NCBI GenBank assembly: GCA_003194525.1
Contig: NBIV01000018.1
Coordinates: 372,001-436,000, forward strand
Origin: Gracilariopsis chorda
Taxonomy: Eukaryota > Rhodophyta > Florideophyceae > Gracilariales > Gracilariaceae
Direction of reading: 5' to 3'
Length of the DNA: 64,000 bases
In this document: positions 23,437 to 55,640 of the stretch, one piece after another
Layout of the letters: each line of letters starts with the position of its first letter
Position numbering within the stretch: position 1 is the first letter of the stretch
Notes under the pieces: generated by a model
What the model saw: only the letters and a program-made list of their open reading frames with translations
What the model was told of the DNA's origin: nothing
The model's database searches: none
Translations under genes and position numbers: made by a program

Positions 23437-26400
23437 GAGAATCCCTGCCTCAACCCCGATGGACAGGAGTCATCTGACTCCAGAAGTCCTTCGGAGTCTC
23501 ACCAACCAATGGACGAATGGATCGACGACCCTTTGGAGCCGTCGCTGGATGATCAGGACCCTATTTGTGTCCTGAGGAAGGAGAACTATAAAGTTCGAAT
23601 GACCATAGGACTCCGCCCCTCACACTCTAGAGTGGCTACGAGTGTGCTGGACACGGGCGCTGGGCCCAATTTGGTACATCCTAAGGTCCTACCGAGTGGT
23701 TGGGAAGACAAGGTTCAGGTGAGGAAGACCCCTAGGATCACTGATGCTTCGCGCAGACCAATGGCCATTAAAGGAATCATTTCTTTATTTGTCCAACTGG
23801 GCAGTTTGCGAGTCCGCACGTGGTTCCTCGTATGTCCAAACTTGGGAGCGGAATGTATCCTTGGGACTTCCTTCATCGACCGCTACGTGAAGGCCATCTA
23901 CCCTGGCCTTCGGAAAGTCGCGTTCTATCGCGCACATCCTGTGGCCCTGATAGGTTCCAAGCCGGGACCTGAGGCAAACCCGCGGAAACCTCCACTGGCG
24001 ACGAACACTGTGTCCAATAAGGTCAGGCTCACAAAAGCCCTGGTCATCCCTGCGATGACTCAGACCACCGCTTGGGTTCAGTGCGAGTCCTCTGGTCTTT
24101 TGACGCTGCAGAATCATCCCAAGACGATCCGGCGTCAACTCACCCTTATGGCCAATGGAGTTATGGACATCCGTCCGCGGCAGCCCTTTGTGGTCAGTAT
24201 CAGTAACTTCACTGACCACCCGGTTCGATTACCTAAAGGAACAGTAGTTGGCATCGCCCTGCCAGCTCCTGTGGCCATTATGGAAACCAATATGGACAAC
24301 TCCCAACCGGACGACGACGAGGACGTCGAGTCCTGGGAGGGGGACGTCAACATGGGCGACGAATTCGAATCCTATAGGCCTCAGGTTATAGAGCTCCTTT
24401 GGGAATTCAAATCCATGTGGTCTGGCCAGCTAGGCGAGATTCGGGCGACAAAGCACCGAATTGACCTTAAGGACGACGCGAAGCCAGTGTACCAGCACCC
24501 CTATAGGACGGGCCTAAAAGGAAGAACCATCGTGGCCGAACAGATGGACAAGATGAGGAGGGCCAACGTCATCGAGCCAGCTCCTCCTCATCAGTCCGAA
24601 TGGGCAAGCCCTTTTGTCCTTGTGGCCAAGAAGGATGGCTCCGTCAGGTTTTGCGTTGACTATAGGAAGCTCAACGCTATGACCAAACGGGATTCGTACC
24701 CTATCCCCCGGATGGACGACTGTCTCGATTCCTTAGGAGAGGCAGCTGTCTTTACCACCTTGGACGCCAATTGGGGATATTGGCAAATACCACTGGACGA
24801 TGACGCGAAGCCGCTGACCACGTTTACGACCCACGAGGGACTTTTCCGATTCATTCGGATGCCCTTTGGATTAATGAACGCACCCGCGACGTTCCAGAGG
24901 GCAATGGACATTATCCTATCTAGGGTCAAATGGAAGTTCGCGCTGGTCTACTTGGATGACGTTATCATCTTTTCGAAGACCATTGGTGAACATTTCTCCC
25001 ATGTTAGAACAGTCCTGAGGATTCTCCGTGAGGCCGGAATAACTTTGAAGCTCCCCAAGTGCTTCTTTTTCCAGTCCTCTGTGGATTATCTTGGCCATGT
25101 GGTCCGCCCTGGCTGCCTACAGGTTGCCTCGAGGACGACTGACGCCATACGGCAAGCTAAGCCCCCCAGGACCCATACGGAGTTGCGTTCTTTTTTAGGT
25201 CTGTGCAACGTCTATCGTCGCTTTGTCCAAGGGTTTGCAAAGATCGCTGCGCCGCTTAACGACATGCTGCGCAAAGGGACCCCATCGGAGTTCGATTGCC
25301 TGACGGACGAACAATACGAAGCTTTTGAGGCCCTGCGGGATAAGCTTCTGAACCCTCCTATATTGGCCTTGCCTAAACCGGACAAACCGTACATCCTTGA
25401 TACGGATGCGTCCGATGGCCAAATTGGATGTGTTCTCCTCCAGGAACAAGAATCTCCGAAGGACTATAGACCAATTGGATATTGGAGCCGCTCGCTAACG
25501 AGCCCAGAGCGGAATTATAGCACGTCCGAGAAGGAGTGCTTAGCCATTGTCTGGTCAGTATTAACCTTAAGGCCATACTTGGAAGGAGTCCGCTTTACCA
25601 TTAGGACTGATCATCATTCCCTCAGGTGGCTTATGAACATGACCGACGCGTCCAGCAGGCTCGCCCGATGGAGATTGCGCCTGTCGGAGTTTGATTTCGA
25701 CGTTGCCTATAGGCCGGGGATCAAGCACCGAGCAGCGGATGCCCTCTCTAGGATCCTAACCGACGGCACCGACGAATCCCCACTGGACGACGAGCTACCC
25801 ACGCCGGACCTTTCAGGTTATGAATCTGACCATGAGGATGACTTCCTTCTAGGACGCGTTAATTGCGATGACTCCGATGTGGACGTGAATGCAGTTTACC
25901 TTGTGGACTGGCCTATGGATGACGACAGCGAAGCGCGGACCCTTGAGGTTCATGCGGTTCAACCAGAGGAAAAGGAGCTCTTGCCCATCACGCTGGATGA
26001 GCTCCTTCAGGCCCAAAAGGACGACGAGTACTGCAAAAACCAGGCTGACCTCGTCGGGACCCCTGGCTGTCTGTTCGACTACGACCGATTCGGACTGCTC
26101 TGTCGCAGAGCCCCTCTGGACGGAGCAATCCAGCGGGTCATTCCCAAGGTCCTCAGGGCACGGGTTCTATACCTCGCCCATTACCCCCGGTTGGCCGGCC
26201 ATCCTGGCGGAACAAGAATGTATCAGTCCTTAAGGAAACATTTCTACTGGCCCTTTATGGCTAATGACCTCTGGCAGACCTCTAGGACATGCGCTTCGTG
26301 CGTGAAAGCACGCGGCTCGAAAACCATCCATCAGGCCAAGTTGAAGCTGTTCCCAGCCGCAGGACCACTGGAGTTTATCGCTACGGATATCCTAGGGCCA

Positions 26401-27738
26401 TTACCGTCAACGACCCATGGGAACAAATTTATATTGGTGCTTACCGATCGGTTCACCAAGCTCACCAGAGCTATTCCCATGAGGTCCACTACGGCCACTG
26501 ACGTAGCAATGGCGTTCTTGACCCATTGGGTGTATCCATATGGTCTGCCACTTTATCTCCTATCGGACAACGGGCCACAATTCGTGTCGAAATTCTTCGC
26601 TCACGTCTGTTCGACCTTAGGAATTAAGCACGTCACCACAACGGCTTATCATCCGCAGACCAATGGACAGGCTGAGCGCTTCAATAGAACCATTAAGGAC
26701 AGGTTGGTGCATTATGTTGCAGAGCACCAGGCCGATTGGGATGACTACGTCGGACCGCTGGTCTATGCGTATAACACGCAAGTCCATCGGTCCACGGGGA
26801 CTACACCCTTCGACCTAACGCTCACGCGACAGCCCCCGCACTTTGCGGTTGACCTTAAGGACAGCTGGATACCACAGGACTTCACGGCAGAAATGACCCC
26901 TGCCCAGGCCAAACGGTACACCCGGAAGCGGATTGACGATATCATCCGTACGGCCAGAGCACGGTTGAACAAGTCCCAACGGAGGTACAAGGATGACTTC
27001 GATAAGTCCGTCAGGTTTACGCTATCCTTTAAGGCCGGTGACATGGTCTACTTAGACCGCGCTCCATCGGATAAGCCGCAGGACGATATCGGGGTCATCA
27101 CTCGAAAGCTCCTCCCACGGTCCACTGGTCCCTATAAGGTTCTCTCAGCTACGTCCCATACGGTCACTATTGAAATCGATGGCCTACAGGACACCGTCGC
27201 AATTGACCGCGTTACGGCCGCGCCTATGCCGCCGAAGCCCACTGGTTCCCCTTTGGAAACTCCTGAAGACGCCCCTTCAGATGCTCCCAATTCCGCCGTA
27301 CAGGACTCTACACCTACGGACGAGCAGCTTTCGTCCCGCCCTAAGGTAGTTACGGCAGATCCATTGATCGCTACACCACTTCCAAAGGCCGTCTCGGCTG
27401 ACCCACTGGCCCCCTCATCCCAAGAGGAACACAACGACGGAGTACCGTCCCAGTTGGCCAATGATGGTTACGCCCCTTTGGACGAGATGGATCTCCCCGA
27501 GGAGTGGCCTGTGGATGTTCCGAAGGACGTATCTTCACTTCCTAAGGAAAGCGCTATAGACCGTGTGGTCAATGCCGGCATTGACGACGACGGCGTCGTC
27601 AAATACCGTGTCCATTGGTACGGCTACAAACCCTCTGAGGACACATGGGAACCCCGGGAGAACATCCCGGAGAACTTGTCCTTAGGTTTTGGCGCCGCAT
27701 GGGCCACGGCGCGGAGCGCTAACCATCCTCTGGTCTAA
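23398..27738 (+). CDS. pol: gypsy B Pol polyprotein with chromodomain
   Basis: One uninterrupted frame (first ATG 23509, open upstream into gag) of about 1,440 residues. Protease VLDTGAGPNLV is near 23647. The RT has FCVDYRKLNA and the catalytic YLDDVIIFS near 24950. The RNase H has LDTDASDGQIG near 25396. The integrase zinc finger runs from HYPRLAGHPGG to CASCVKARG, and the core residues lie in FIATDILGPL, LLSDNGPQF and HPQTNGQAERFNRT. The C-terminal chromodomain (VVNAGIDDDGVVKYRVHWY to TWEPRENIPE, 27570-27675) is close to the end. All catalytic residues that can be judged by eye are present. The linker before the chromodomain is shorter than in element A. Confidence 0.95.
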   Translation, partial: KRVEERPEASRPSENPCLNPDGQESSDSRSPSESHQPMDEWIDDPLEPSLDDQDPICVLRKENYKVRMTIGLRPSHSRVATSVLDTGAGPNLVHPKVLPSGWEDKVQVRKTPRITDASRRPMAIKGIISLFVQLGSLRVRTWFLVCPNLGAECILGTSFIDRYVKAIYPGLRKVAFYRAHPVALIGSKPGPEANPRKPPLATNTVSNKVRLTKALVIPAMTQTTAWVQCESSGLLTLQNHPKTIRRQLTLMANGVMDIRPRQPFVVSISNFTDHPVRLPKGTVVGIALPAPVAIMETNMDNSQPDDDEDVESWEGDVNMGDEFESYRPQVIELLWEFKSMWSGQLGEIRATKHRIDLKDDAKPVYQHPYRTGLKGRTIVAEQMDKMRRANVIEPAPPHQSEWASPFVLVAKKDGSVRFCVDYRKLNAMTKRDSYPIPRMDDCLDSLGEAAVFTTLDANWGYWQIPLDDDAKPLTTFTTHEGLFRFIRMPFGLMNAPATFQRAMDIILSRVKWKFALVYLDDVIIFSKTIGEHFSHVRTVLRILREAGITLKLPKCFFFQSSVDYLGHVVRPGCLQVASRTTDAIRQAKPPRTHTELRSFLGLCNVYRRFVQGFAKIAAPLNDMLRKGTPSEFDCLTDEQYEAFEALRDKLLNPPILALPKPDKPYILDTDASDGQIGCVLLQEQESPKDYRPIGYWSRSLTSPERNYSTSEKECLAIVWSVLTLRPYLEGVRFTIRTDHHSLRWLMNMTDASSRLARWRLRLSEFDFDVAYRPGIKHRAADALSRILTDGTDESPLDDELPTPDLSGYESDHEDDFLLGRVNCDDSDVDVNAVYLVDWPMDDDSEARTLEVHAVQPEEKELLPITLDELLQAQKDDEYCKNQADLVGTPGCLFDYDRFGLLCRRAPLDGAIQRVIPKVLRARVLYLAHYPRLAGHPGGTRMYQSLRKHFYWPFMANDLWQTSRTCASCVKARGSKTIHQAKLKLFPAAGPLEFIATDILGPLPSTTHGNKFILVLTDRFTKLTRAIPMRSTTATDVAMAFLTHWVYPYGLPLYLLSDNGPQFVSKFFAHVCSTLGIKHVTTTAYHPQTNGQAERFNRTIKDRLVHYVAEHQADWDDYVGPLVYAYNTQVHRSTGTTPFDLTLTRQPPHFAVDLKDSWIPQDFTAEMTPAQAKRYTRKRIDDIIRTARARLNKSQRRYKDDFDKSVRFTLSFKAGDMVYLDRAPSDKPQDDIGVITRKLLPRSTGPYKVLSATSHTVTIEIDGLQDTVAIDRVTAAPMPPKPTGSPLETPEDAPSDAPNSAVQDSTPTDEQLSSRPKVVTADPLIATPLPKAVSADPLAPSSQEEHNDGVPSQLANDGYAPLDEMDLPEEWPVDVPKDVSSLPKESAIDRVVNAGIDDDGVVKYRVHWYGYKPSEDTWEPRENIPENLSLGFGAAWATARSANHPLV

Positions 27739-34968: not shown

Positions 34969-37900
34969 ATGGCTTCAAATCTTCAGAATGATCCACAGGA
35001 GACGGGCTCGGGCGCTCTCGCCCCAGCAAGCCGTGCTACACAACAGCGAGGACGGGGAAGAGGTAGAGGTCTCGGCCGTGGTCGCCCCCGAGGGCGCGGC
35101 AGAGGACGTGGCAGAGGTCGGGGTGGAGTACAGCGGAATCGAAATCAACGGGATCCTTCTCAAGGTTGGCGAATCTGTAATCCCACAGCCCAAAGATTGT
35201 TGCTCGAAGATGTATTCATTAGTGAAGCCGTCGAGGAGAGAGCAAGACTGTTCTGTGAATCAGCAGTGGAGAGGCTTGATTTAGAGCTGAACGCTTGTCA
35301 GCTTCCTTCTACTAGAGTTGGACACATAGTCCTACTAATGGATGACATGCTTCGTATGTGTCTGCGATGGATTAATGAATACATAAGTCTGTACCGTAGA
35401 GACATGGAACTTCTACGAATGCACCACCTCTATGGATTTGTCTCCGTACTTCTATTGTCTCATTGCACTGGATTTAGCATGGCGAAAACCATCGACATTT
35501 TGCGCGCCGAGGGTGTCGACCCGCCGCACATTGCTATTGTTCGCTTCATATGTGGAAATATTCTTGCTTTCTCACCTACTGGTCGAGGCCTAGACGGAGG
35601 AGGAACTTGGTTGGCACAAAGAGACCAAACGCCGCTTTTAACGCAATTGGAGAAGACGGCATTTAGGCAAACCTGCAAAGTGTTCGTGTCACCTAACTAC
35701 ACTTTAGCGACACTCGATGATGACTTATACGGAACGAGAGCATCGGACAATCAAGTCAAGTCACTCAGTAATCGGAAGGCTGATAGAGAAGGACACCAGG
35801 CAGACGCTATAGCGGACTCTCTTTTTCGCGTGACGCTTATGGTTCGGTTCCGAAGACGTGGCGAATCTGTTTTCAGCAACGTACGAAATCTGGTTGATGC
35901 ATTACTAGAGGGACGGGCTGAGCAAAGTATTCGCGGATTTGTTTTAACAGCAGACCGCGGTTATGGGAAGGTGGCATTGTTACGTGAACTACTTAAACAT
36001 GGTATTGGGTCTATAATGATTATGCCAGATCACCTTCTACAGTGTCATCCGTTTGTCGGACAATCGTATCTAAACGTAATGCGTCATGACTATGAAGAAC
36101 TGGATGGTGATGAAACAGACGGCAGTACTGACTCTGACCAAGCCCTGCAACAGGAAGACGATCCCTCTACTAGTGATATTGTCCCTGGACCAACAACGCT
36201 CTCAACTGACCGTGCCCGTACCTTTATTTTAAATGATGAGCCCAGTCAAGGTCCGAAAACATGGTTCGCAGGGAAAACGTTAAAGATTCGAAACCGTGGG
36301 GAGAGTCATGCTGTTAACAGAGTTAAAGTTACAGCTGTCGCTGTTCGTGAAAGAGGAACAGACAAGTTTAGCCGCATTATCAGATTCATGTACAGTTTAC
36401 CATCCAGCTTTTCAACCTTGTTAGAAAGCTGGATTGCTGTACCCAAGTGTACGAGAATGATCGGAACGCTGTTTAGCAAGCGAGATAATACAGGTCGCCT
36501 CACGATCCCTCCAAACGACTCTACAGAGTTTCAGGACGTAATTGAACGTCACATTCTGGATCACTGTTCTGTGCTAACGCTGGACCAACGATGCGCTGAT
36601 TGGTTTGTGTTGAGACAATTTCGAGTAACTGGTACCAGCGCAGGAAAAATCCTGCATGCTAACGACGCTTTCAGAGAAATGGTTGGTCTAAGCGAACCTA
36701 CCTGTACAGAACAAACTTTACAACAATCACTTCTATCTTTCGTGCAGACATGGTTTGGAGGTGGTCGGTCTACAGAACCGATGATGCGTGGTACGGCAAA
36801 CGAGCCTGCAGTAGTTGCCTCTTTGAAATCGAAGGCTTTTGTACAAGCATTTTATGGCTGTGGAATGCTGTCAATGAAGGCGAAGCCGTGGCTTGCTTGT
36901 TCGCCGGATGGTATAGCTATAATAGAACTGCTTGACTTGGGACTATGTTCTGAAGAATCTGAGACCGAAAGTACTCAACTGTGCTCAGTTGAAATCAAGA
37001 CTAATGTCGCGCAGAGCAGTCTGGACAGGGCTCTTGGTCTAGCCACTGCTGATCTGGTAACATGTGAGGTGGGCGATCAATCATTCCGAAGATACATTCC
37101 AGCTGAGCACATTGGTCAGATTTTGCACCAGATGTTGGTTCTGGCAGTTAACTATGTCATTTACGTTTCATGCTCTGAGTCTGGCATCATGTATACAGTT
37201 TTGGTGCATTGCAACAATTCAGTACTCGACACCTGCCTTTCTGCGTTGAATGCTATCGCACTGCCAGTGGTATCGTGGGCCCATCAGCCAGGTCCTCTTC
37301 AAATACCTTCTTTCAGTCACACAGAGACCACCAAAGTGCTGCAATCTAGATTTCAATTCTGGTCTTTGGTTAACAACTACGTGACACAGAATGACGCTTT
37401 TCCGCCCCTTAAACTATTCGAACACGCATCTCAAAGTTTATACTCAAGAACTAAAGGTGGTGTTGATGGGAGTACACAAGCCAGGGCAATTTTAAGGTCA
37501 TCAACTTCAGCAATGAAATGGGAACAAAAGGTGGTAACGCAAACACTCAAAACGTTGTCTGTCAATGCATTCATTTCATGGCGAATGTCTCAGAAGAGAG
37601 ATTTATTGCAGAGCAAGGAAACATTCCGAAGCCTTAAATCCTATCGTCAGGCTCTAAATGGAATTCAATCACTGGCTGACTTTGTGCATGATGCATCTAA
37701 GGAGCTTATAGTTTATGCACAATCCTTAGGGACGGAGGACAACGCCGAGACATTGGAAGTACACCAGGACGAAATTCAAAGATTACACACTCTAGCTCGG
37801 ACTCGAAAGCGGAGACGCCTTGTCTTCTTTAACGGACCAGACGGAATTTCGTTGAGACTAAATGTGAAGAATCACATTCTAAAGCAACAGAAGGGACAGC

Positions 37901-38253
37901 AGTACTGCGCGCTCTGTGGAATAAGGGGAATTACTGAAAATGAAGAAGGATGGCGTGGACATCGCACAACATACAAATGTCTCCAATGTGATGTATACCC
38001 TTGTACTAGAATTTACCGAGGACTTCGGAAAAGCTGTAGCGAGGTATGGCATTCTCTTAGAGTCCTCAAGCCTAGAAGCACAGCAAAACCGTGCAGTCGG
38101 TCTGTGTTTCCAATGCATGGTCATGATCAAGTCGGGGACGAGCGAGAAGAAGGCCAATCAGGCCCAAATACTCGCTTAAATACAAGGGTAAGAGAGACAA
38201 GAACTGATGAGGAAGAAGACCTTATCAGGCCGAGACGAAGAGCAAGGACGTAG
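34969..38253 (+). CDS. piggyBac-like transposase fused to a YqaJ-type nuclease
   Basis: 1094 residues. An N-terminal Arg/Gly tract (residues 27-53) resembles RGG nucleic-acid-binding tails. The transposase core follows. ATLDDDLYGTRASDNQVK (247-264) aligns with the SIDEQLLGFRGR-type first-Asp motif of piggyBac. FVLTADRGYGKVALLRELL (324-342) aligns with the second-Asp motif, with a spacing of 79 (78 in piggyBac). The third Asp is not certain. Residues 541-740 show the YqaJ/lambda-exonuclease order: RCADWFVLRQFRVTGTSAGK, then MRGTANEPAV (E612), PWLACSPDGIA (D647), SVEIKT (E675, K677) and QILHQM. The C-terminus (about 965-1015) has the piggyBac-type Cys/His cluster: YCALCG, a RTTYKCLQC segment and PCT. 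The nuclease sits between catalytic core and Cys/His domain. Intact and likely functional. Confidence 0.82.
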   Translation: MASNLQNDPQETGSGALAPASRATQQRGRGRGRGLGRGRPRGRGRGRGRGRGGVQRNRNQRDPSQGWRICNPTAQRLLLEDVFISEAVEERARLFCESAVERLDLELNACQLPSTRVGHIVLLMDDMLRMCLRWINEYISLYRRDMELLRMHHLYGFVSVLLLSHCTGFSMAKTIDILRAEGVDPPHIAIVRFICGNILAFSPTGRGLDGGGTWLAQRDQTPLLTQLEKTAFRQTCKVFVSPNYTLATLDDDLYGTRASDNQVKSLSNRKADREGHQADAIADSLFRVTLMVRFRRRGESVFSNVRNLVDALLEGRAEQSIRGFVLTADRGYGKVALLRELLKHGIGSIMIMPDHLLQCHPFVGQSYLNVMRHDYEELDGDETDGSTDSDQALQQEDDPSTSDIVPGPTTLSTDRARTFILNDEPSQGPKTWFAGKTLKIRNRGESHAVNRVKVTAVAVRERGTDKFSRIIRFMYSLPSSFSTLLESWIAVPKCTRMIGTLFSKRDNTGRLTIPPNDSTEFQDVIERHILDHCSVLTLDQRCADWFVLRQFRVTGTSAGKILHANDAFREMVGLSEPTCTEQTLQQSLLSFVQTWFGGGRSTEPMMRGTANEPAVVASLKSKAFVQAFYGCGMLSMKAKPWLACSPDGIAIIELLDLGLCSEESETESTQLCSVEIKTNVAQSSLDRALGLATADLVTCEVGDQSFRRYIPAEHIGQILHQMLVLAVNYVIYVSCSESGIMYTVLVHCNNSVLDTCLSALNAIALPVVSWAHQPGPLQIPSFSHTETTKVLQSRFQFWSLVNNYVTQNDAFPPLKLFEHASQSLYSRTKGGVDGSTQARAILRSSTSAMKWEQKVVTQTLKTLSVNAFISWRMSQKRDLLQSKETFRSLKSYRQALNGIQSLADFVHDASKELIVYAQSLGTEDNAETLEVHQDEIQRLHTLARTRKRRRLVFFNGPDGISLRLNVKNHILKQQKGQQYCALCGIRGITENEEGWRGHRTTYKCLQCDVYPCTRIYRGLRKSCSEVWHSLRVLKPRSTAKPCSRSVFPMHGHDQVGDEREEGQSGPNTRLNTRVRETRTDEEEDLIRPRRRART

Positions 38254-47401: not shown

Positions 47402-47977
47402 ATGGGCTTCCGATTAGCAAGACCATGGCTACCATGTGTAAACGGGCGCCTCGCGAAGGAGGCAATAAAGCAGTTGTGCACATTATCGCATCTGGACAAG
47501 AACAAAAAAGCAAGCATGGTAGACGTATCCGCCAAAGGCAGCACAGTGCGCACAGCAAGCGCACAAGGAAGCGTGCACGTCGGTGAGAAAATCCACACGC
47601 TTCTGAAACAGTCGTTGACGGCGAGGACGAAGAAAGGGGACGTTTTAACAGTGGCTCAAGTTGGCGGCATCATGGGTGCGAAACAAACGAGCAATTTAAT
47701 TCCGTTATGTCATGCAATATCTCTTTCGCACGTTGATGTAAATGTATGGTTATCAGAGAAGGAGGCTGCCGTTTGTATTGAAGCGAGTGCAACAAGTATT
47801 GGACAGACGGGTGTGGAAATGGAAGCGTTGACAGCTGTGTCAATTGCGGCGTTGACTGTGTACGACATGTGTAAAAGCGGAGGAAAAGGTATTACGATTG
47901 AGAGGATAAGGTTACAAAGTAAGACGGGTGGACAAGATGGTGATTACAGCATCAACGGAAAAGAGACCAGTCGTTGA
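47402..47977 (+). CDS. CNX3: Cyclic pyranopterin monophosphate synthase (MoaC / CNX3)
   Basis: 191 residues: about 28 residues of extension, then a full MoaC domain. Family motifs are clear: LSHLDKNKKASMVDVSAKG, then GGIMGAKQTSNLIPLCHAI, the CIEASATSIGQTGVEMEAL segment and VYDMCKS. MoaC converts the 3',8-cyclo-GTP made by MoaA into cyclic pyranopterin phosphate, in the first step of molybdenum-cofactor synthesis. The N-terminal extension (GFRLARPWLP) is basic and hydrophobic, compatible with mitochondrial import as for plant CNX3. The 3' end overlaps the convergent MOG1 gene by 26 bp. Confidence 0.93.
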   Translation: MGFRLARPWLPCVNGRLAKEAIKQLCTLSHLDKNKKASMVDVSAKGSTVRTASAQGSVHVGEKIHTLLKQSLTARTKKGDVLTVAQVGGIMGAKQTSNLIPLCHAISLSHVDVNVWLSEKEAAVCIEASATSIGQTGVEMEALTAVSIAALTVYDMCKSGGKGITIERIRLQSKTGGQDGDYSINGKETSR

Positions 47978-48575
47978 TTTGGAAAGTATTGAGCGCTTGT
48001 TGCAGGACGGATGAGCGAATGGTGGGGTCTGTTTGATGGGGGTCTGCCACAGAAGAGCCCAAGTTTGTACTTGACGAGTGAGGGTGCAGTTGTATAGGGT
48101 CATTAAAAACCAAGAGAACATCAGTGGCGACGTTTGGCAAACGGATACAAACAACGTAAACGTTAACGGTATTAGCGGCGGCAGTATGATCGCGAAACTT
48201 TGAAACGACGTGGGTGCCATGCGCGAAGGAGAGGTGCAAGCGCGGGTCGACGGTCAACAAGGCGGGCAACTGCGAGGTGGGCAGCAGTTTGGAGGCGGCC
48301 AAATCGGCGCGAAGAGCGTGTGCATCTGTGGCAATGACGGAAAAATGGTGGCTGGCCGGGGTTGTGTGCGGCGGTTGTGGAATGTCGGGGTGCAGCTGGA
48401 GCAACTCGACGATGAGGGAGCGGTCTGTGGGGGCGTGGGCGAAGATCTCCTGGTTGTCAGGGACTTGTCGGATTTTGGACACGTCGGCGAATTGCGGCGG
48501 GATGGCGGTGGAGATGGCGCCGCCGAAGAGCGGACGGTGGTGGGGTTGGGCGGAGTGGCTGGCGGCGCCGACCAT
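47952..48575 (-). CDS. MOG1: Ran-binding protein MOG1 (RanGRF)
   Basis: 207 residues starting MVGAASHSAQ. The conserved MOG1 N-terminal block is present: HRPLFGGAISTAIPPQFADV followed by RQVPDNQEIF and SLIVELLQL. MOG1 binds Ran and promotes GTP release, supporting nuclear protein import. The frame is open 94 codons further upstream, but that part crosses the permuted tRNA-Gly gene and is not protein-like, so the Met at 48575 is chosen. The family's usual length (about 190-220) agrees. The stop lies inside the 3' end of the convergent MoaC gene. Confidence 0.88.
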   Translation of the reverse strand: MVGAASHSAQPHHRPLFGGAISTAIPPQFADVSKIRQVPDNQEIFAHAPTDRSLIVELLQLHPDIPQPPHTTPASHHFSVIATDAHALRADLAASKLLPTSQLPALLTVDPRLHLSFAHGTHVVSKFRDHTAAANTVNVYVVCIRLPNVATDVLLVFNDPIQLHPHSSSTNLGSSVADPHQTDPTIRSSVLQQALNTFQINDWSLFR

Positions 48576-48628: not shown

Positions 48629-48638
48629 AAAAAGAAAA
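48629..48638 (-). terminator. RNA polymerase III terminator of the permuted tRNA-Gly
   Basis: Minus-strand TTTTCTTTTT begins 10 bases after the 5' half. Runs of four or more T end Pol III transcripts, so the precursor would contain leader, 3' half, spacer, 5' half and a short trailer. Confidence 0.8.
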
Positions 48639-48647
48639 GCTGTTGTT

Positions 48648-48723
48648 TGGAAGGCTGATATCATACCATTTGACTACAGGCGCGTGCGTACGCCCGCCGG
48701 GAATCGAACCCGGAACCTCAGCT
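48648..48723 (-). tRNA. trnG-UCC: Circularly permuted tRNA-Gly (anticodon TCC)
   Basis: On the minus strand the 3' half comes first (48723-48689). It holds A38, anticodon 3' stem GCTGA, variable GGTT, T-arm CCGGG-TTCGATT-CCCGG, acceptor CGGGCGT and discriminator A. After five bases (CGCAC) the 5' half follows (48683-48648). It holds acceptor GCGCCTG, TA, D-arm GTCA/TGAT, A26, stem TCAGC, and loop CTTCCA with anticodon TCC. Rejoined, all stems close: acceptor 7/7 with two G-U pairs, D 4/4 with one G-U, anticodon 5/5, T 5/5. The length is 71 nt, usual for tRNA-Gly. A-box TAGTCAAATGG and B-box GGTTCGATTCC are present. The join falls between positions 37 and 38, the normal intron site. A 7-bp leader hairpin (48744-48726, one bulged A) precedes the 3' half. 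No linear copy overlaps it. Confidence 0.9.
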
Positions 48724-49861
48724 GACATCACCTTTTGGTTGATGCAGTGCGCGTGGTGGTTGATAATTAAATGGGTAGATGACGGGGGTAGCCATCCACG
48801 TGGAGGGGGATGCGCGCGAGAAATGATGAGCGGCGACGTGGAGGTGGTGCATGGCACGAAGCGGTAAAGGCGGAGTTGGACAGGAGCACATTTAATATGA
48901 TATGATCAAGTGTGAAGTGAACAGCGACGACTGTAATGATGAGGGCGGGAATGTTGTTTTGGCGAGAAGAGAATGCTGTTGAAAGCATTGTGTTACACGG
49001 GCGTTTGTGAAGCAACGGCGGGCGCGGGGATGGTGTGGCACGCAATGCTGAATTAACGGCCACGACGGGGGGGGGCGTGAAGGTGAACGAGTGGTGAAGC
49101 TTTTCATTGGCGCACGGGTGTGTTTCCCGCAGCAAGAGGAGGCGGGCGACTGTCGCGAGTGGGGAGGGAGGGATGCATTTTTCGCATTTGACAAGAATGC
49201 ACACGCCGCTATGTGCAACGAAGACGAAACGAGGCAACACAGTGCTGCGCGCTATGCACGACGGCGGTGACGTCATTAGTGGCGCTGCCGCTGTTGCGAA
49301 CACTCTTTACACCGTCGCGAGGCAGGTGGCGCGCAAGCAGCGGCAGCGGCAGCGCCTCGCTCAAACAAGCGGCGCTTTCCGGCGCGCGATGAATTCAAGC
49401 GCGCGCAATTACAGCCGCGCGCGCAGTGTAAGCAACGCGCGCTGCAGCCGCGCCACGTGAAACGCAGCGCGACGCAACGAGGCGTCAAGCGCGCCGCGCC
49501 TTTGAGCAGCACCAAAACTCCCCCTCCACGCCGCCGCGCCCGCAAAAAAGGCGTCCTGCGCGCGCTCCAAAAACACGCCGTGTAAAAATAAACCCCACCG
49601 TCGCACCCGCGCTCGCGTCCACTTCATAGCCCGCCCGCCCGCCCCCCGCCACTCGCTCGCCTTCGCCTCTGTCGCCCTCCCACTACTACGTGTTCCCCCC
49701 CCCCGCACGCCCCGTATCCCACCCTTCGTACACCCCCACCCCCCACACACTCCCCTCCTACATACTTACCCCCCATCCCCACTCACAAACTCACAAACTC
49801 ACAAACTCACAAATCACAAAACTCACACACCCCCCCCTCCACCACCCTACCACCTCCGCCC
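48724..49861. other. Intergenic region, GC-rich, with simple repeats before the zinc-finger gene
   Basis: Frames here are long only because of base composition and show no domain. GCGCGC-rich sequence occupies 49320-49480. A CT-rich stretch with CTCACAAA-type tandem units (about 49791-49830) lies directly before the zinc-finger start and is probably promoter or 5' UTR. Confidence 0.5.
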
Positions 49862-55566: not shown

Positions 55567-55640
55567 GGCTCTGTGGCCAAATTGGATAAGGCATCGGTCT
55601 ACGGATCCGGAGATTGCAGGTTCAAGTCCTGCCAGAGTCG
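55567..55640 (+). tRNA. trnR-ACG: tRNA-Arg (anticodon ACG)
   Basis: 74 nt, linear and without intron. Acceptor GGCTCTG pairs with CAGAGTC (one G-U), discriminator G. D-arm GCC/GGC. Anticodon arm TCGGT-CTACGGA-TCCGG with the T31-T39 mismatch also seen in other tRNA-Arg(ACG). T-arm GCAGG-TTCAAGT-CCTGC. A-box TGGCCAAATTGG and B-box GGTTCAAGTCC are present. No CCA is encoded. Confidence 0.95.

Follow-up and report, generated by a model that had tools for sequence, protein, structure and literature searches.

The locus at positions 48648-48723 of the 64-kb stretch of Gracilariopsis chorda DNA analysed here (the window) raises the question of whether a tRNA gene with its two halves in swapped order can be the working source of a glycine tRNA in a seaweed. 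The host, guessed in the initial annotation to be florideophyte-like, is a florideophyte (Rhodophyta, Florideophyceae, Gracilariales). On sequence inspection, the minus strand carries a leader, a tRNA 3' half, a 5-nt spacer, a 5' half and a trailer in that order, and the arrangement of a linear or intron-containing gene, with the 5' half before the 3' half, was not found at the locus. In minus-strand order, the features are:

48763-48772, minus strand: TATA-like A/T run ATTTAATTAT, at -49 to -40 relative to A38
48731-48735, minus strand: leader arm (-8 to -12), able to pair with the trailer
48724-48729, minus strand: leader GATGTC (-6 to -1), conserved in both copies of the gene; its G-3 faces C32 and it may serve as the 3' splice site
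48689-48723, minus strand: tRNA-Gly 3' half of 35 nt (A38-A73), with the B box at 48710-48700 and no encoded CCA
48684-48688, minus strand: spacer CGCAC, between positions 73 and 1
48648-48683, minus strand: tRNA-Gly 5' half of 36 nt (G1-A37), with anticodon UCC and the A box at 48676-48666
48635-48639, minus strand: trailer arm (+9 to +13), able to pair with the leader
48629-48638, minus strand: T4-C-T5 run, a probable Pol III terminator
47952-48575, minus strand: MOG1, a neighbouring gene outside the tRNA gene (PF04603, E = 1.1e-35)

ARAGORN identifies the 71 nt obtained by rejoining the halves as tRNA-Gly(tcc) with a score of 120.6, every stem being paired and wobbles occurring at G1-U72, U6-G67 and G10-U25. 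The initial annotation had placed a complete 3' half 5 nt ahead of a complete 5' half, which is correct to the base, and its further claims of closing stems in the rejoined tRNA, intact A and B boxes, a TCC anticodon, a T-rich terminator downstream (T4-C-T5 at 48638-48629) and a position upstream of MOG1 were borne out as well. When the unmodified 64-kb window is searched, ARAGORN and an Rfam scan call only a linear tRNA-Arg (55567-55640) and not the permuted gene. As both miss it, standard annotation of seaweed tRNAs may omit needed genes.

A covariance model (R1) was assembled from 24 linear tRNAs of the G. chorda genome, none of them Gly(TCC), which had been rearranged in silico to the permuted order. 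Judged by its sequence, the permuted locus is not a chance match, because this held-out model picks 48648-48723 at 58.2 bits (E = 8.3e-18) in the window, compared with 26.8 and 14.3 bits for the two remaining matches, both on or beside the linear tRNA-Arg. The permutation-aware search of the minus strand that had been proposed at the outset thus recovers the locus. Across 30 of 87 collected loci (72 kb), R1 scored two permuted copies at 59.2 and 58.2 bits and the other 56 matches at no more than 35. R1 covered the window and 34 loci, R2 the window, and the D-loop-permuted model R3 the window together with loci L015 and L016; R3 reached 39.5 and 38.6 bits at the two permuted loci and 33.2 bits with the linear tRNA-Arg alone. 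A third permuted candidate (L008, 35 bits with R1) was rejected, as by eye it consists of the 3' half of a linear Thr(UGU) tRNA with no 5' half in the sequence after it.

In the assembly (91.3 Mb, 1081 contigs), the rejoined tRNA matches two sites, both permuted: the window locus and a second copy on a 615 kb contig (C11:21957-22032). When pieces extending about 500 bp to each side were compared, the two loci shared only 82 bp, of which 80 are identical, and these comprise the leader GATGTC, both halves and the spacer. The halves are 100% identical and the two differences both lie in the spacer (CGCAC in the window copy, TGCAG in the second). On the trailer side, identity stops at A37 and in both copies the 3' half begins at A38, which places the junction at 37/38. 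The spacers are 5 nt long in both copies and lack a promoter or terminator; with A73 followed by CGCAC or TGCAG, the 3'-terminal CCA is not encoded, which is of the eukaryotic type. T-runs lie downstream in both copies, and the second copy has an A/T run, TTTAATAAA, starting at -47. Among 61 linear tRNAs of the genome, 41 have an A/T run of at least 6 between -75 and -20 from G1, with a median start at -45, and 56 have a T4 within 40 nt downstream.

The 5' half ends 72 nt before the MOG1 start codon on the same strand, a position which would suit a tRNA-like element that regulates MOG1 or serves as a source of tRNA-half RNA instead of a tRNA gene. We regard this as extremely unlikely, given a second copy on another contig, where the near flanks are unrelated to those in the window, and a conservation that spans the mature tRNA and the putative splice site.

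A genome search for a linear tRNA-Gly(TCC), suggested in the initial annotation, detected none within the sensitivity limits of the searches used. Patterns of the 5' half with up to 3 mismatches matched only the two permuted loci in the genome; of the controls for these patterns, one search gave 0 matches and the other, with a backwards pattern, 2 chance matches. The RF00005 search returned the 61 linear tRNAs, 60 of which ARAGORN names (it calls nothing in locus L043), with 4 Gly tRNAs, all GCC. Likewise, querying with glycine tRNAs of plants, of human and of this genome gave only 4 linear matches, all Gly(GCC); the plant and human queries, which are approximate sequences, missed the permuted copies too and therefore say little about linear genes. 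Four initiator Met tRNAs, Pro(AGG/CGG), three Leu(AAG) and Tyr are absent from the RF00005 list and were located by other routes.

That tRNA searches of this genome are lower bounds leaves some room for a different history, in which both loci are unused fossils of a tandem tRNA duplication and Gly(UCC) comes from a linear gene that is unassembled or too divergent to find. The leader of the window copy would fit such a decayed array, as it is weakly like a 5' half, a likeness equalled in 183 of 5000 shuffles, but the leader of the second copy shows no such likeness (1626 of 5000). Moreover, the halves are unchanged between loci whose near flanks have lost all similarity, the A and B boxes and all stems are intact, the leader GATGTC is conserved along with the splice pair, and the genome searches, within their limits, yielded no linear candidate, so that disused fossils appear highly improbable. 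The stretch concerned, 48724-48752 on the minus strand, permits an alignment to the 5' half over tRNA positions 1-27 and is a possible duplication relic; with these shuffle counts and the R3 scores given above, it was set aside as a lead only. Further tRNA-half remnants were sought in pieces of about 3 kb around each copy and none was convincing, the weak matches having E values of 0.12 and 0.35.

A Gly(UCC) tRNA is needed, since GGA and GGG together make up 153 of 355 glycine codons in eight ORFs of the window, one of them a retrotransposon. Very probably, G. chorda has two functional circularly permuted nuclear genes of type II (37/38) for tRNA-Gly(UCC), of which the window locus is one, and GGA and GGG are probably read by the tRNA made from these two. 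The permuted reading put forward in the initial annotation draws support from the R1 score, the second permuted copy, the lack of a detected linear copy, the junction feature and the enzyme genes described below.

At the junction, C32:G-3, U34:A-5 and C35:G-6 can pair and U33/U-4 is a mismatch, so that three of the four pairs of the central helix are present; on the 5' side, a loop stands in place of the 3-nt bulge. The initial annotation saw no canonical bulge-helix-bulge, but a putative relaxed splice-site motif with C32:G-3 and three of four central pairs is present. The C32:G-3 pair occurs in all five junctions examined, namely the two permuted genes and three intron-containing tRNAs of the same genome. 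Since the junction carries this pair along with some of the central helix belonging to a 37/38 splice site, there is no need to assume the unusual processing suggested at first. The leader's own 7-bp hairpin, which had also been noted, appears in folds of the window copy and was rejected as a conserved element because it is absent from folds of the second copy. A helix between leader and trailer can form in the same register (-8/+9) in both copies, with 7 and 5 pairs; it is unremarkable in each copy taken by itself (reached in 1533 and 564 of 3000 shuffles), and for the copies jointly 77 of 20000 shuffles are as good. Free folding of the precursors favours another fold by 1.8 to 6.8 kcal/mol over an enforced cloverleaf; the circularised 76 nt and the rejoined tRNA each fold as a cloverleaf.

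Regarding the enzymes, the splicing-endonuclease domain PF01974 was found at two genome loci, and one of the proteins matches, at 100% identity across 316 residues, a protein named tRNA-splicing endonuclease subunit Sen34 [Gracilariopsis chorda]. A ligase RtcB is encoded as well (506.6 bits). The host thus encodes predicted splicing endonuclease domain proteins and a predicted ligase RtcB.

As the halves are in swapped order in the only Gly(UCC) genes detected, the working tRNA is probably made through an RNA circle, a route demonstrated before in unicellular algae. Pol III, aided by the TATA-like element upstream, would make a single transcript of leader, 3' half, spacer, 5' half and trailer. 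This precursor would fold as a cloverleaf with the spacer capping the acceptor stem and the anticodon loop open, and at this open loop leader and trailer would meet like the two ends of an intron. By analogy with the C. merolae pathway, the splicing endonuclease would then make two cuts, one at the end of the leader and one following A37, a ligase (RtcB in all probability) would join A37 to A38 to give a 76-nt circle, and RNase P and tRNase Z would excise the spacer before CCA is added. A functional permuted gene could also do without a circle, if the spacer is cut by RNase P and tRNase Z at the start and the paired halves are joined afterwards in the manner of a split tRNA, or if two precursors are trans-spliced. 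The precursor already contains the whole acceptor stem and T arm, and the relaxed junction motif and the competing fold are compatible with such a route, but a published review reports that circular intermediates retain the spacer in red and green algae, and we consider maturation without a circle unlikely.

The same review lists 34 permuted tRNA genes, found in one archaeon and in six algae, all of them unicellular. Its table includes two C. merolae genes for Gly(CCC), of type II and with spacers of 7 bp, which, compared by description only, resemble the Gracilariopsis genes in having the 3' half first, a junction at 37/38 and a short spacer (7 bp vs 5), as well as in being two copies of a glycine tRNA gene with no encoded CCA, a TATA-like element upstream and a T-run downstream. 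Unlike them, the Gracilariopsis gene has a UCC anticodon and no 55/56 intron was seen in it, and it resides in a multicellular florideophyte whose assembly measures 91 Mb. The spacer, which the initial annotation had taken to be very short, is not exceptional, as two Bigelowiella nucleomorph genes also have spacers of 5 bp and an archaeal gene has one of 1 bp. Permuted tRNA genes have further been described in another nucleomorph (PMC4494063) and in the green alga Auxenochlorella (PMC12633428), and as far as the accessible parts of these sources go, type II genes of prasinophytes, chlorarachniophyte nucleomorphs and Auxenochlorella share the 37/38 junction with Gracilariopsis. All of these belong to the green lineage, and those in the review table comprise Ser, Cys, Leu, Arg, Asn and initiator Met, with no glycine. 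In the accessible part of a 2026 paper on Cyanidiophyceae (PMC13353863), the term for permuted tRNAs occurs solely in the references.

Among the open-access matches listed, none reports by title a permuted tRNA in a macroalga, including Chondrus crispus, subscription papers being mostly outside this scope. By the open-access literature, this is apparently the first permuted tRNA gene in a multicellular alga, although priority is not certain. Relatives of the locus gave 0 matches in viral_contigs and genome_contigs, among which there is no other red algal genome. If the only detected genes for a tRNA that decoding requires are permuted in a macroscopic seaweed, whose 91 Mb assembly bears retrotransposons, this would show that the arrangement depends neither on a very small genome nor on a unicellular way of life. 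It also opens to testing how old permutation is in red algae and whether full dependence on a circular tRNA intermediate is possible. Conceivably, though we hold it to be doubtful, a permuted glycine tRNA gene is ancestral to red algae, so that the Gly(CCC) pair of Cyanidioschyzon and the Gly(UCC) pair of Gracilariopsis go back to a single permuted gene, retained ever since the Cyanidiophyceae diverged from other red algae. It would then form part, together with D-loop introns, of a rhodophyte-wide system of disrupted tRNAs that extends to multicellular seaweeds, with all reading of GGA and GGG dependent on circular RNA.

Other tRNA genes of the genome are interrupted at the same site. Introns at 37/38 were found in Val(UAC) (L071, 19 nt), Ser(UGA) (L072, 25 nt) and Tyr(GUA) (L096, 13 nt), each with G-3 facing C32. 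These tRNAs share the splice position and the G-3:C32 pair with the permuted genes and differ from them in their normal exon order and their introns of 13 to 25 nt. ARAGORN labels the Tyr(GUA) tRNA as Asn. Targeted patterns recovered three linear Leu(AAG) tRNAs and one intron-bearing Tyr. Gly(CCC) was not found by a targeted pattern, for which a backwards control gave 2 chance matches, and genes for Leu(CAA/TAA), Ile(UAU) and elongator Met were not located in genome searches. Three approaches (the RF00005 search, a query with plant tRNAs and a pattern of the 5' half) yielded no Asp(GUC) gene, which may be divergent, interrupted or permuted.

Two Lys(UUU) tRNAs and one Ala(UGC) tRNA (L043, C41:148648-148735; L060, C13:413992-414078; L068, C141:171958-172042) have D loops enlarged by 13 to 15 nt, and ARAGORN misses or misnames all three. 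By eye, these extra nucleotides look like the non-canonical D-loop introns reported in C. merolae. An A/T-rich tRNA for Cys(GCA) (L041, C19:33892-33963), which lies on a contig of 496 kb, is organellar-looking by eye and perhaps represents organelle DNA inserted in the nucleus. Elsewhere in the window, 23509-27738 and 34969-38253 hold, respectively, a retrotransposon polyprotein (RT, RNase H, integrase, chromodomain) and an ORF that encodes a YqaJ recombinase domain.
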